A stretch of DNA of 36,346 bases, from NCBI GenBank assembly GCA_949529445.1, contig CATISA010000126.1, forward strand, positions 1-36,346, read 5' to 3'. This DNA is from Alphaproteobacteria bacterium UBA4588 (GTDB taxonomy: Bacteria > Pseudomonadota > Alphaproteobacteria > Puniceispirillales > Puniceispirillaceae). Each line of letters starts with the position of its first letter. Position 1 is the first letter of the stretch. The notes beneath the pieces were generated by a model. It was not told where the DNA came from. It saw only the letters and a program-made list of their open reading frames with translations, and did not search any database. This document shows, piece after piece, positions 9,513 to 14,307 of the stretch. A program made the translations under genes and the position numbers.

Positions 9513-9833
9513 CTAAGAGAGTGAACTATGCTTTTCACCCCAGACGGCTAAGGCTTGTAAAATCGGGGCAAGGTCCTGCGCTTTCTGGGTAGGTTGGTAA
9601 ATTTTACGGCGTTTATTTTCTTCATCCATCATAGATTGAAGCAGGCCATCTGCTTCTAAACTTCTTAATCTATCTGTTAAAATATTAGATGAAATTTTTT
9701 CTGGTGACTCGCTGAATTCGTGAAAATGTTTTTTGTTGTGAAATAAAAGGTCACGCAAAATAATTAGAGACCACCTATCACCAAAAATAGCAAGTGCACC
9801 AGCAATTGGACAGTTACAGTCAAGGTTTGACAT
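9513..9833 (-). CDS. HxlR-type winged-helix transcriptional regulator
   Basis: A 106-residue HxlR/YodB-family regulator. The signature CPIAGALAIFGDRWSLIILR begins at C8, followed by the wing and recognition part (EKISSNILTDRLRSLEADGL) and the family's C-terminal LAVWGEKH. Such proteins bind palindromes as dimers, and several (YodB, HypR) sense thiol-reactive compounds through an N-terminal Cys; here C6 and C8 are both present. It faces away from the RND operon starting at 9996, with 162 bases between them, so it very probably controls that operon and itself. The inducing signal cannot be read from the sequence. Confidence 0.93.
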   Translation of the reverse strand: MSNLDCNCPIAGALAIFGDRWSLIILRDLLFHNKKHFHEFSESPEKISSNILTDRLRSLEADGLLQSMMDEENKRRKIYQPTQKAQDLAPILQALAVWGEKHSSLS

Positions 9834-9869
9834 TTAGCACTCTTAGAATTTTACCTGTTAAATTTTCGA

Positions 9870-9884
9870 CTTGCAAAATGCAAG
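9870..9884. promoter_or_regulatory. Candidate HxlR operator (perfect palindrome)
   Basis: The 15 bases CTTGCAAAATGCAAG form perfect 6-base arms (CTTGCA/TGCAAG) around a 3-base centre. The site is 37 bases upstream of the regulator's start codon and 112 bases upstream of the RND gene, inside the only shared control region. Symmetry and position suit a dimeric winged-helix repressor; binding itself is inferred. Confidence 0.5.
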
Positions 9885-9995
9885 CGTTTAAACTAGGCCT
9901 ATTTTTATTCATTAATATAGTTAATGGGCAATTGCAAATAACGACCAATATTCTCCTCAGCTCGTCAACCGTTCATGCTTTTTAAAAGGTAGAAA

Positions 9996-12356
9996 ATGTC
10001 TCAGCCAGTTTCGTCGTCGGATAACTCATATGGTGAATTTTTACTGCGGCATCGGTTTGTTGCATTATTCATTCTCTTACTTGCAACTTTTGGCCTTTCA
10101 TCTGGGGCACAATTTTTATATTTTGATAATGATTACAGAGTTTTCTTTGGCAAAGATAACCCACAACTTAAGGCTTTTGAAAAAGTCCAGCAAACCTATA
10201 CAAAAATCGATAATGTGAATTTTGCTATCGACCCCTTAACCGGATCTGCGAATGACCCTGCAGTACTCGCCGGCGTGGAAGCGCTCACAGAAATGGCGTG
10301 GCAACTCCCCTTCTCTATCCGTGTTGATAGCTTATCGAATTATCAGCACACTGAAGTAGATGGGGATGACCTCATTGTTCGAGATCTATTTATGAATGGT
10401 AGCGAACTTAGTGCTGATGAAATGCAGCTTGTTAATGAAATCAGTACAACAGAACCATCTCTTTCTGGTAAAATCCATGATAGTCAGCATCGTGCTACCT
10501 CTGTGAATGCAACAATACAGCTTCCGGGCAAAACGGCAGATGAAGTTGCAGTTGTTGCAAAGGCTGCGCGCGAGCTTGCGGCCACGATAGAAGCTGATTA
10601 TCCGATAAAAATACGGCTTAGCGGCGTTATTTTCTTGAATAATGCATTTATGGAATCGTCTATGCGGGATATGGGGACATTGATACCAGCAATGTATCTT
10701 GTCATTCTTATTGTTGCCTATGCGCTATTGCGCTCTTTTACAGCAACAATCCTTGTACTTATCGTCATTATTCCAAGTATTACAGTTGCGATGGGTTTTG
10801 GTGGCTGGATGGGCATTGGCTTGACGCCGCCATCAGCCAGTGCGCCCACCATTATAACCACACTTGCGGTTGCTGACTCCATTCATTTACTAGTAGTGAT
10901 GCTCAACCGTATGCGAGACGGGCACGATAAACGCGAAAGTCTGCTTTATAGTTTGCGGGTTAATGCTAAGCCAATCTTTTTAACCAGCGTGACAACAGCT
11001 CTAGGATTTTTGTCACTGAACTTCTCCGATTCCCCGCCCTTCCATGATCTGGGTAACATAACAGCGTTTGGTGTCATGGCTGCATGGGTATATGCTGTTG
11101 TCCTGCTACCTATTTTGATTAGCTTTATGCCCATAAAACCAAAGGGTAACTTACAGAAACTTGATACAAAGATGAGCGTTATCGGCACTTTCATTGCTGA
11201 TAAATACAAAGCTGTTTTGAGCGTTAGCGTTGTTATATCAGTTTGTCTTTTAGCGCTTATTCCATTGAACGAAATCAATGATGATTTTGTTAAATATTTT
11301 GATGAATCTGTTGAATACCGTCAGGATACTGACTGGGTCAGTGCAAATCTTACCGGCGCAAATCTCATTCAGTTTAATCTTCAGTCTGGCGAGCCCAATG
11401 GTGTAAGCGATCCAGCATTTATTCAGACAGTTGCCGATTTTACAGAATGGGCGTTGAATGAAGAGGTCGTCACCCATGTTCAGTCTATCTCCGATACTTT
11501 TAAGCGGCTTAATCGTGACTTAAATGAAGGCAATGAGACTTTCTATAGCATTCCTGAGACACGCGATCTTGCCGCTCAATATCTGTTGCTTTATGAGCTC
11601 TCCCTTCCTTTTGGGCTCGATATGAATAATCAGCTAGACATCAGTAAATCATCGACACAAGTAGTTGTCACGCTTGATGATATGACAACCAAAGAGCTTC
11701 GTTCCTGGGTTGCTCGGGCGGAAAACTATCTGGCTGAAACGCACAATACAAATCTGACGGCTGTTGGGCCAACTGTGATGTTTGCCTATATTTCCGAGCG
11801 CAATATTGAAAGCATGCTTATCGGTACGCTTATCGCTGTATTCTTAATTAGCGGGGTTATTCTGATTGCGTTACGTGATATTCAGCTAGGGCTTATCAGT
11901 TTGATACCTAACCTGCTACCTGCGGCACTCGCTTTTGGCGTATGGGGCGCATTGGTCGGTCAGGTTAATATGGCTGTTGCCGTGGTCGCAGGCATGGCCC
12001 TCGGAGTTGTCGTAGATGATAGTGTGCACTTCTTAACAAAATATCAGATTGCTCGGAGAGAGTTGAAACTAACCGCCCGTGATGCTGTTATTTCAGCATT
12101 TAATGGTGTTGGCACAGCTCTGGTCGTCACCACCCTTATTCTTGTGGCAGGATTTGCCATTCTGGCGCAGTCTTCCTTTGGTGTGAACAGCTATATGGCG
12201 ATGCTCACAGCAATTGCCCTTGTGATTGCCTTGATTGCTGACCTGACCTTATTGCCAGCATTGCTGATTGTTCTAGATAAAGACAAGCCTGCAAAGAAAC
12301 ACTTAGACTTGAACACTAATGTAGCAGCTTCTTCACAAGCTAAAACAGCGTCTTAA
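9996..12356 (+). CDS. RND/MMPL-family inner-membrane transporter
   Basis: A 786-residue RND superfamily protein of the single-chain MMPL/HpnN type. It has a helix at about 20-36, a large periplasmic loop (about 40-225), a first helical bundle (225-380), a second periplasmic loop (about 425-600) and a second bundle. The two proton-relay sites expected of the family are visible: D294 in LAVADSIHLL and the D674-D675 pair in VVVDDSVHFL. Members use proton flow to move hydrophobic molecules or lipids out of the inner membrane. AAAGG lies upstream of the ATG. The LolA-like gene follows after 14 bases and a beta-barrel gene overlaps that, forming a three-gene transport operon controlled by the divergent HxlR regulator. 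Cargo unknown. Confidence 0.92.
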   Translation: MSQPVSSSDNSYGEFLLRHRFVALFILLLATFGLSSGAQFLYFDNDYRVFFGKDNPQLKAFEKVQQTYTKIDNVNFAIDPLTGSANDPAVLAGVEALTEMAWQLPFSIRVDSLSNYQHTEVDGDDLIVRDLFMNGSELSADEMQLVNEISTTEPSLSGKIHDSQHRATSVNATIQLPGKTADEVAVVAKAARELAATIEADYPIKIRLSGVIFLNNAFMESSMRDMGTLIPAMYLVILIVAYALLRSFTATILVLIVIIPSITVAMGFGGWMGIGLTPPSASAPTIITTLAVADSIHLLVVMLNRMRDGHDKRESLLYSLRVNAKPIFLTSVTTALGFLSLNFSDSPPFHDLGNITAFGVMAAWVYAVVLLPILISFMPIKPKGNLQKLDTKMSVIGTFIADKYKAVLSVSVVISVCLLALIPLNEINDDFVKYFDESVEYRQDTDWVSANLTGANLIQFNLQSGEPNGVSDPAFIQTVADFTEWALNEEVVTHVQSISDTFKRLNRDLNEGNETFYSIPETRDLAAQYLLLYELSLPFGLDMNNQLDISKSSTQVVVTLDDMTTKELRSWVARAENYLAETHNTNLTAVGPTVMFAYISERNIESMLIGTLIAVFLISGVILIALRDIQLGLISLIPNLLPAALAFGVWGALVGQVNMAVAVVAGMALGVVVDDSVHFLTKYQIARRELKLTARDAVISAFNGVGTALVVTTLILVAGFAILAQSSFGVNSYMAMLTAIALVIALIADLTLLPALLIVLDKDKPAKKHLDLNTNVAASSQAKTAS

Positions 12357-12370
12357 AAGGAGATCTTACT

Positions 12371-13156
12371 ATGAAATTTTTGCCTGTATCGCTCATTGCG
12401 CTGTTTGCTATCTCTCATCTGCCTGCTCTGGCTGTAGCCTCTGCTGAAAAGGGGCTCGAAATTGCTATCGCTGCTGATAATCGAGATAAGGGGTTTGGTG
12501 ATACAACCGCTGACATGACAATGACCCTCACCGATAAATATGGACAGTCGACAAGCCGCGTTATTCGTAACCGAACATTAGAGGGTAGCGATGAAGGCGA
12601 TAAGTCGATTGTCATTTTTGACAGTCCGGGGGATGTACGTGGCACAGCTTTCTTGTCGCATACAAAAAAGACAGACACAGATGACCAATGGCTTTTTCTG
12701 CCTGCCTTAAAGCGGGTTAAGCGCATTGCCTCTTCAAACAAAGCAGGCCCTTTTATGGGAAGTGAATTTGCTTATGAAGATATCTCTAGTCAGGAAGTTG
12801 AGAAATATACCTATAACTATCTCAGAGATGAAACACTGAATGGTCTTGACTGTTTTGTGATTGAATATGATCCCATTGATCCCAAAAGTGGCTATAAGCG
12901 ACAGATTGTCTGGATGGATAAGGCTGAATACAGGCTCCAGAAAATCGATTTTTATGACCGCAAAGATAGCCTTCTTAAAACACTCATTTATAGTGATTAT
13001 AATCTGTATCTGGACAAGCATTGGCGCGCTCATACTATGGTAATGACCAATCATCAGACAGGAAAATCAACTGAACTTCTATTTTCAAACTGGACAATGC
13101 AGTCTGGGCTTACCGAAAATGACTTTCAGAAGAATACGCTCAAACGGATCAGATGA
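12371..13156 (+). CDS. LolA-like periplasmic protein (outer-membrane lipoprotein-sorting protein family)
   Basis: A 261-residue secreted protein with a signal peptide ending near residue 25 (ALAVASA). The mature part is an unclosed beta-barrel of the LolA/LolB type: EIAIAADNRDKGFGDTTADM, then IVIFDSPGDVRGTAFLSHT, QWLFLPALKRVKRI and AGPFMGSEFAYEDISSQEVE, all hallmarks of the PF17131-type family annotated as outer-membrane lipoprotein-sorting protein. No lipobox is seen, so it is probably soluble and carries a hydrophobic cargo between membranes. AAGGAG lies just upstream of the ATG. It sits between the RND gene and the barrel gene, and its TGA overlaps the next ATG by four bases, so the three are translated together. 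This is not the general LolA, which is much closer to E. coli LolA in other genomes. Confidence 0.88.
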   Translation: MKFLPVSLIALFAISHLPALAVASAEKGLEIAIAADNRDKGFGDTTADMTMTLTDKYGQSTSRVIRNRTLEGSDEGDKSIVIFDSPGDVRGTAFLSHTKKTDTDDQWLFLPALKRVKRIASSNKAGPFMGSEFAYEDISSQEVEKYTYNYLRDETLNGLDCFVIEYDPIDPKSGYKRQIVWMDKAEYRLQKIDFYDRKDSLLKTLIYSDYNLYLDKHWRAHTMVMTNHQTGKSTELLFSNWTMQSGLTENDFQKNTLKRIR

Positions 13157-14307
13157 TAAAACACGTTTTTATAGGTGCTATTGCTCTTTGCTGTCTGACA
13201 AACAGCCTGTTCGCAGGTGAAGTCAATACAACGTTATCATCACGCTATGATGTATTTCCTGAAAATAGCAGTAGAACGCAAGATAAAAGCCGTTCTGCTG
13301 AGCTCAAGCTCGAAGCATTTCATGATCTTGATGACAGCCGTTTTGTGGCCGAGCTTATCGGACGCGCAGATGCGGATGATGCAGGTAGACGCATCCTTGA
13401 AGCGCGGCAAGCTTATCTGAGGACCCCCATTGCCGGTATGGAGGCGTTTATCGGTCACCGGCAGGTGTTCTGGGGAAATGCTGAAAGTAAAAATGTTGTT
13501 GATATAATCAATCAGAGTGATGCTGCAGCTGCTCAGGGCTCATCAGCCAAACTAGGAGCCCCCTCCTTATCACTCGAACGCTATATGGATAGTGGTGATA
13601 TGCAATTATGGTATATCAACGCCTTCCGCCAGAGAACCTTTAATGATTCTGACGCCCATCCAAGCAGTGGCATTCCGGTAACATCTACTCGGTTTGAGAG
13701 AGCGAACGGTCAAGATGCAGATGATTTTGCCGGTCGTTTCTCTACCGTATCTGGTGACTGGGACCTTGCGGGAAGCTTATTCTATGGCACGGCACGTGAC
13801 CCAATTCTGATACCCATTTCAAGTGGCACAGCTCTTCAAGCCTATTATCCCGTGATGAAATCAGTAGGATTTGAAGCACAACATACCGGCGAAAATTTAC
13901 TGTTCAAATGGGAAAGCTTGCATGGCACACAAGCCAGCAGTGCCTTTGCGGCTGCTGTCATGGGCATCGAATATAGCTTTTATGGCGTTGTTGATGATTT
14001 ATGGGATATAGGAGTGATTGCCGAACTTCAGCATGATGATCGCCCGCAAGCTGCTGCTGACCAGTTTCTTGTTGGCGGGCTCCGTTTTATCTTGAATGAT
14101 GTTGATGATACGACCCTTTTATTCCTTGTCTCGGCTGACAAGGAAGCCGACCAGTCCCTTGTATCGCTCGAAGCATCAAAACGGTTGAATAGCTGGTCAA
14201 GTATTGAGCTATCTTCTACCTTTTTTTCGAGCCGAACGGCAACCAGTGCTTATGGCCTGCTCTCCGATGATGACAGCCTATCTGTGACCTATAACGTCTT
14301 TTTCTAG
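13153..14307 (+). CDS. Predicted outer-membrane beta-barrel protein (DUF1302-like)
   Basis: A 384-residue exported protein: signal peptide with cleavage after about residue 21 (NSLFA), then alternating polar/hydrophobic strands and a C-terminal phenylalanine (YNVFF), the usual outer-membrane insertion signal. The stretch RQAYLRTPIAGMEAFIG and HRQVFWGNAESKNVVDIINQ (about 85-121) resembles the conserved GRQxVWGxxD...DVxNP block of DUF1302 porin-like proteins. It overlaps the LolA-like gene by four bases (ATGA), so it is the last member of the RND operon and a plausible exit or acceptor in the outer membrane. I do not recognise a named protein; the barrel call is strong, the family call moderate. 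Confidence 0.75.
   Translation: MIKHVFIGAIALCCLTNSLFAGEVNTTLSSRYDVFPENSSRTQDKSRSAELKLEAFHDLDDSRFVAELIGRADADDAGRRILEARQAYLRTPIAGMEAFIGHRQVFWGNAESKNVVDIINQSDAAAAQGSSAKLGAPSLSLERYMDSGDMQLWYINAFRQRTFNDSDAHPSSGIPVTSTRFERANGQDADDFAGRFSTVSGDWDLAGSLFYGTARDPILIPISSGTALQAYYPVMKSVGFEAQHTGENLLFKWESLHGTQASSAFAAAVMGIEYSFYGVVDDLWDIGVIAELQHDDRPQAAADQFLVGGLRFILNDVDDTTLLFLVSADKEADQSLVSLEASKRLNSWSSIELSSTFFSSRTATSAYGLLSDDDSLSVTYNVFF

Follow-up and report, generated by a model that had tools for sequence, protein, structure and literature searches.

A conserved RND/LolA-like/β-barrel gene cassette in a marine SAR116 bacterium as a candidate export route for hydrophobic compounds

Gene sets that combine an MMPL-type RND transporter with a LolA-like periplasmic protein have been described from several bacteria. 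In Castellaniella defragrans, the AmeABCD system comprises an MMPL-type RND, a LolA-superfamily, a DUF1302, and a COG4447 protein. Cells from which it has been deleted tolerate monoterpenes less well and, when energy-depleted, accumulate more Nile Red, the latter effect being small (PMC6394551). In Thalassolituus oleivorans, TOL_3187—which bears MMPL and LolA-like domains—and the porin TOL_3188 rise on n-C28 alkane (PMC6304351), and high expression is also described for a DUF1329/MMPL/porin/YCF48 cluster of a benzene-degrading bacterium (PMC13101534). For ApeL, ApeM, and ApeN, a role in the transport of aryl polyene lipids has been proposed (PMC8253772). A P. gingivalis operon coding for TetR, MMPL, LolA-like, and hypothetical proteins is strongly induced under iron or hemin limitation (PMC10434189, PMC10470040), and the hopanoid transporter HpnN reportedly functions with no periplasmic or outer-membrane partner dedicated to it (PMC6394551). 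Closely similar sets (AmeABCD, TOL_3187/3188, and ApeLMN) are hence already in the literature, and the kind of system described below is not new. In the literature searched, no paper treats the RND/LolA-like/barrel trio as a single named system or establishes what it carries. The first-pass annotation of the present locus had spoken of similar sets without a settled cargo; the cargo is indeed unsettled, but such sets had already been published.

The window—the whole stretch of 36,346 nucleotides that was analyzed—is a contig of the 1.93-Mb draft genome of a marine SAR116 bacterium, and among the relatives found, the closest are mainly SAR116 (Puniceispirillales) alphaproteobacteria. The cassette, flanked by MFS and EamA transporter genes (Pfam), comprises the following features:

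9513 to 9833, minus strand: HxlR-family winged-helix regulator (106 aa; PF01638, 65 bits)
9869 to 9885, no strand assigned: candidate HxlR operator, palindrome ACTTGCAAAATGCAAGC, within the 162-bp divergent intergenic region
9996 to 12356, plus strand: MMPL/HAE3-like RND inner-membrane transporter (786 aa; PF03176, 122 bits)
12371 to 13156, plus strand: LolA-like periplasmic protein with type I signal peptide (261 aa; PF17131, 218 bits)
13153 to 14307, plus strand: predicted outer-membrane 18-stranded β-barrel with signal peptide (384 aa; structure model)

The gene order, the 14-base gap between the RND and LolA-like genes, the 4-base overlap between the LolA-like gene and the third gene of the trio, and the divergent HxlR gene lie exactly where the first-pass annotation had placed them. 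Its assignments of an inner-membrane RND/MMPL protein and of a LolA-like carrier were likewise confirmed by the family scores, for the former also by a model of the RND fold.

The transporter is a member of PF03176 (122.2 bits against a cut-off of 20.5), and its model (pLDDT 78.6, pTM 0.76) displays two periplasmic loops. A Foldseek search with this model gives MmpL4 and MmpL5 as best matches, followed by NPC1-type proteins, MmpL3, and HpnN. Aspartates in the central helices are expected of proton-coupled RNDs, and D294 and D674/D675—located in both central helices—are invariant in an alignment of 12 relatives. The best NCBIfam match is the HAE3 model TIGR00921, whose score of 149.1 bits lies under the curated cut-off of 351.9; hence, the protein is called HAE3-like only. 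With HpnN, it has the MMPL-type RND fold in common, and its scores against the HpnN models are far under the cut-offs (105 of 752 bits and 54 of 1100 bits). It is the sole MMPL-type transporter seen in the draft genome; PF03176 has two other matches there, one of them SecD and the other a fragment resembling AcrB.

The LolA-like protein covers PF17131 over its full length (model positions 3–184 of 184). Two known structures match it: a Vibrio parahaemolyticus homologue solved by crystallography (3bk5, E 1e-94) and P. gingivalis LolA3 (9tp6, E 1e-32); a hydrophobic groove is present in both homologues and has been described for LolA3 (PMC13103446). The carrier belongs to PF17131 and not to the canonical LolA family PF03548, which places it outside the canonical Lol pathway. 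The database name "outer membrane lipoprotein-sorting protein" would suggest a role in the sorting of lipoproteins or outer-membrane proteins, and the LolA fold fits this name, as does the fact that canonical LolA is undetected in both genomes of the genus (G000 and G001). Such a role is nevertheless highly improbable: canonical LolA scores over the PF03548 cut-off in 57 of 61 relatives, including 20 of the 24 that carry the cassette, most relatives live without the cassette, and Pfam reveals no ABC genes within it. That the cassette replaces a lost LolA in its own genus was considered and rejected. In the relative L140, LolA is the neighbor of FtsK, which G000 lacks and which in G001 breaks off where the contig ends; since the ftsK–lolA region is missing from both assemblies, the absence of canonical LolA is best explained by an assembly gap.

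Neither Pfam nor NCBIfam yields a match for the third protein. Its structure prediction (pLDDT 75.6, pTM 0.72) yields an 18-stranded β-barrel, and its translated open reading frame ends in NVFF, in agreement with the outer-membrane barrel with C-terminal Phe that had been claimed from the letters. The model aligns with the 18-stranded barrels of OccAB3, OprD, and AlgE over about 300 residues (Z about 23–24); a likeness between a predicted fold and OprD or AlgE does not show what the protein does. The DUF1302 (PF06980) cut-off is passed by neither the window barrel nor 16 relatives, and long DUF1302 proteins, when compared directly by profile, match it weakly, so that a direct assignment to this family was rejected as not significant. 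In other genomes, barrels of about 430 residues that do pass the cut-off adjoin RND and LolA-like genes, and the profile of the window barrel matches these over its whole length with 99.3% probability. Because of these intermediates, the barrel is probably a distant DUF1302 relative, by a link that is transitive only.

Compared with the described systems, the cassette resembles AmeABCD in bringing together an MMPL/HAE3 RND (787 aa in Ame), a LolA-superfamily periplasmic protein, and an outer-membrane protein. AmeABCD, however, bears DUF1329 and full DUF1302 proteins, a fourth protein of COG4447, and the order barrel–LolA–COG4447–RND, whereas the window shows a PF17131 protein, a shorter barrel without Pfam match, no fourth gene, and the order RND–LolA–barrel. 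A COG4447 (YCF48-like) gene is absent beside the trio, and no fourth family recurs throughout in this position, which sets it apart from an AmeABCD-type system. By analogy, the cassette may well work like the Ame system, yet we do not count it as a member, since it lacks the fourth gene and its barrel stays under the DUF1302 cut-off; against the analogy itself stands that the Ame barrel and periplasmic protein are of related but different families. In TOL_3187/3188, as described, a porin-like gene comes after the MMPL and LolA-like domains—the layout also of a fused form found in SAR116—but TOL_3187 is one fused, long-chain-alkane-induced protein, whereas the window has separate genes. ApeLMN shares the LolA-like chaperone, the RND transporter, and a proposed lipid route to the outer membrane; its own traits are a LolB-like protein instead of a barrel and its position within a biosynthetic cluster. 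The P. gingivalis operon likewise combines MMPL, LolA-like (named "lipoprotein-sorting" there), and third proteins with an adjacent one-component regulator, and differs by ABC genes within the operon and its iron/hemin response.

In a search that started from the LolA-like protein, the RND gene lies upstream in 23 of 23 loci and a barrel gene downstream in 22, the loci coming from SAR116, gammaproteobacteria, Photobacterium, and a Nitrospinaceae MAG; among 40 further loci picked from PF17131 matches of distinct genomes, RND adjoins the LolA-like gene in 38 and the barrel is present in 37—two sets that overlap partly and whose choice favors close matches, so that these numbers are not unbiased rates. 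In two others of these 40, a different protein of 440–485 residues occupies the place expected for the barrel. The trio is also present on three plasmid records: Halioglobus has the same order, Pseudoalteromonas has the barrel divergent, and in Sulfitobacter galE separates the LolA and barrel genes, with a type I PKS lying upstream. The co-occurrence that the first-pass annotation proposed to search for is thus found in alpha- and gammaproteobacteria, the Nitrospinaceae MAG, and plasmids, and its view that the genes form one set is upheld by these loci together with natural RND–LolA fusions. The trio is a real, conserved three-component envelope unit and not a chance arrangement.

The kit is widespread in marine bacteria. 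Within SAR116, 24 of 61 relatives carry the cassette, which makes it accessory, and this patchy presence, the adjacent HxlR or TetR genes, and the carriage on plasmids fit an accessory inducible function. SAR116 carriers hold one copy per genome—fused or separate, never both. The separate form groups with gammaproteobacterial relatives in a tree of RND proteins, hinting at a possible horizontal transfer of this form. On plasmid p1 of Pseudoalteromonas rhizosphaerae (L143; NZ_CP118497.1, 4282–15180), MMPL and LolA-like genes lie directly before gmtY/integrase/gmtX, i.e., the gamma-mobile-trio, with the barrel divergent; this cassette appears to travel with the mobile element. In ten SAR116 entries (among them L006, L007, L015, L016, L018, and L019) but not in the window, the barrel is followed by a conserved hydrophobic protein of about 131 residues, for which the one member scanned shows no Pfam match.

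RND and LolA are encoded in one open frame in 13 of 40 genomes, and the barrel follows in each of the 13. In a tree of 47 RND proteins, the distribution of fused and separate forms requires two or more changes, so that the fusion most likely arose repeatedly, although L131 sits on a long branch. All 13 junctions bear a basic, hydrophobic segment with an A-x-A-type site that resembles the signal peptide of the free LolA-like protein, which would fit release of the fused LolA part by signal peptidase, or at least its periplasmic placement. The fusions, and the presence of one component per compartment, might also be read as a continuous three-part tunnel of the AcrAB-TolC kind in place of a soluble carrier, and membrane-fusion-protein roles were suggested for the periplasmic parts by the Ame authors (PMC6394551). 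Such a tunnel is very unlikely: the RND model best matches MmpL, NPC1, and HpnN rather than AcrB, the LolA fold is not an adaptor fold, and the complete signal-peptide-like segment kept at the junctions is compatible with release.

The regulator is less constant than the trio. HxlR adjoins the cassette only in its own genus and in the entries L020 and L021, and TetR genes stand beside it in several other lineages; as HxlR occurs in a minority of loci, it was rejected as a general cassette partner. The RrpB model of NCBIfam matches the window HxlR only under its cut-off. In characterised HxlR-type regulators, an N-terminal Cys senses oxidants or electrophiles, and a Cys-Pro motif is found near the N terminus in four of four HxlR proteins—those of the window (C8-P9), L005, L020, and L021. 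When 300 bases upstream of the RND gene were scanned in 58 loci, the palindrome ACTTGCA-N3-TGCAAGT was present with 0–2 mismatches only in the five HxlR-carrying entries (one locus counted twice), and the remaining 53 loci have at least 4 mismatches. In the window, the palindrome lies at 9869–9885 as the single match to its core in 36 kb, where 0.10 is expected, and it overlaps the predicted −35 element of the hxlR promoter. The proposed switch by the divergent HxlR hence gains a candidate operator confined to HxlR loci, but it is not general, with TetR in this position elsewhere.

Taken as a whole, we give about even chances to reading the cassette as an inducible route by which hydrophobic small molecules are exported, with the proton motive force as its driver. 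The RND would take a hydrophobic compound from the inner membrane, coupling to protons through the aspartates in the two central helices. The LolA-like protein, exported by its own signal peptide, would receive this compound and shield it across the periplasm, and the barrel would pass it into or through the outer membrane. In its own genus, HxlR may repress the divergent promoters from the palindrome and may be released by substrate or by thiol-reactive stress, given a Cys-Pro motif like that of HxlR proteins that sense redox state. The transported molecule is most likely hydrophobic and either toxic or in surplus, and less likely a constitutive lipid of the membrane. This export reading is favored by the conserved trio in many lineages and on plasmids, by a modeled RND fold closest to lipid and hydrophobe transporters, and by LolA homologues with a hydrophobic groove, the barrel fold, the RND–LolA fusions, and the phenotype of the deletion of the similar AmeABCD.

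Against it stands that some relatives lie beside biosynthetic genes, which would suit the export of a self-made product. On the two Sulfitobacter plasmids L144 and L150, a 7.7-kb type I PKS gene stops 57 bases short of the MMPL gene, and galE and a barrel gene lie downstream; this PKS is a concrete candidate for the cargo pathway of a relative. On the Leisingera plasmid L148 (459–14328), an aminotransferase gene lies between the LolA-like and MMPL genes. The cluster also holds pabB and genes for an adenylating enzyme and a 4-hydroxybenzoate monooxygenase, which suggests that this relative carries an aromatic metabolite. These two settings, the MmpL/HpnN-like RND fold, and the ApeLMN precedent (PMC8253772) speak for a trio that brings a lipid or lipid-like metabolite made by the cell itself to the outer membrane, the role proposed for ApeL/M/N. 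We regard such delivery as possible but rather unlikely for this locus: neither SAR116 nor most gammaproteobacteria have a recurrent biosynthetic gene next to the cassette, and its distribution is patchy. For the same lack of a conserved biosynthetic neighbor in SAR116, inferring the cargo from neighboring genes was dropped. Hopanoids, considered from the comparison with HpnN, are disfavored as cargo because squalene-hopene cyclase (PF13243) is found in 0 of 61 SAR116 genomes, with control matches elsewhere; this also counts against the lipid-delivery reading.

The opposite direction is conceivable as well: the barrel might admit a hydrocarbon or the like, LolA carry it inward, and the RND deliver it to the inner membrane. 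We consider uptake of this kind improbable, as expression on hydrocarbon equally fits tolerance. Characterised MMPL relatives export, which also counts against it. The strong rise of TOL_3187/3188 on n-C28 alkane (PMC6304351) and the high expression of the MMPL/DUF1329/porin cluster in benzene degraders (PMC13101534) have led to a reading of these hydrocarbon-expressed sets, the latter termed "nanopod" clusters, as possible uptake systems and in this respect weigh against export; the deletion of Ame, by contrast, behaves as a loss of efflux (PMC6394551).

How hydrophobes cross the periplasm outside Lpt, Lol, and Mla is an open question, and similar sets are known under various names from bacteria that degrade hydrocarbons or make pigments, from an oral anaerobe, and from marine plankton, without agreement on what they carry or in which direction. 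Tentatively, and with somewhat less confidence than in export itself, the trio might represent a widespread, unrecognized general route for hydrophobes from the inner to the outer membrane of Gram-negative bacteria—consisting of a proton-driven RND, a diffusible LolA-fold carrier, and a dedicated 18-stranded barrel, with neither adaptor tunnel nor ATP, and with the regulator swapped between lineages. The conserved unit, its natural fusions, and the candidate operator make the questions of cargo and carrier testable in culturable Vibrio, Photobacterium, and Pseudoalteromonas.
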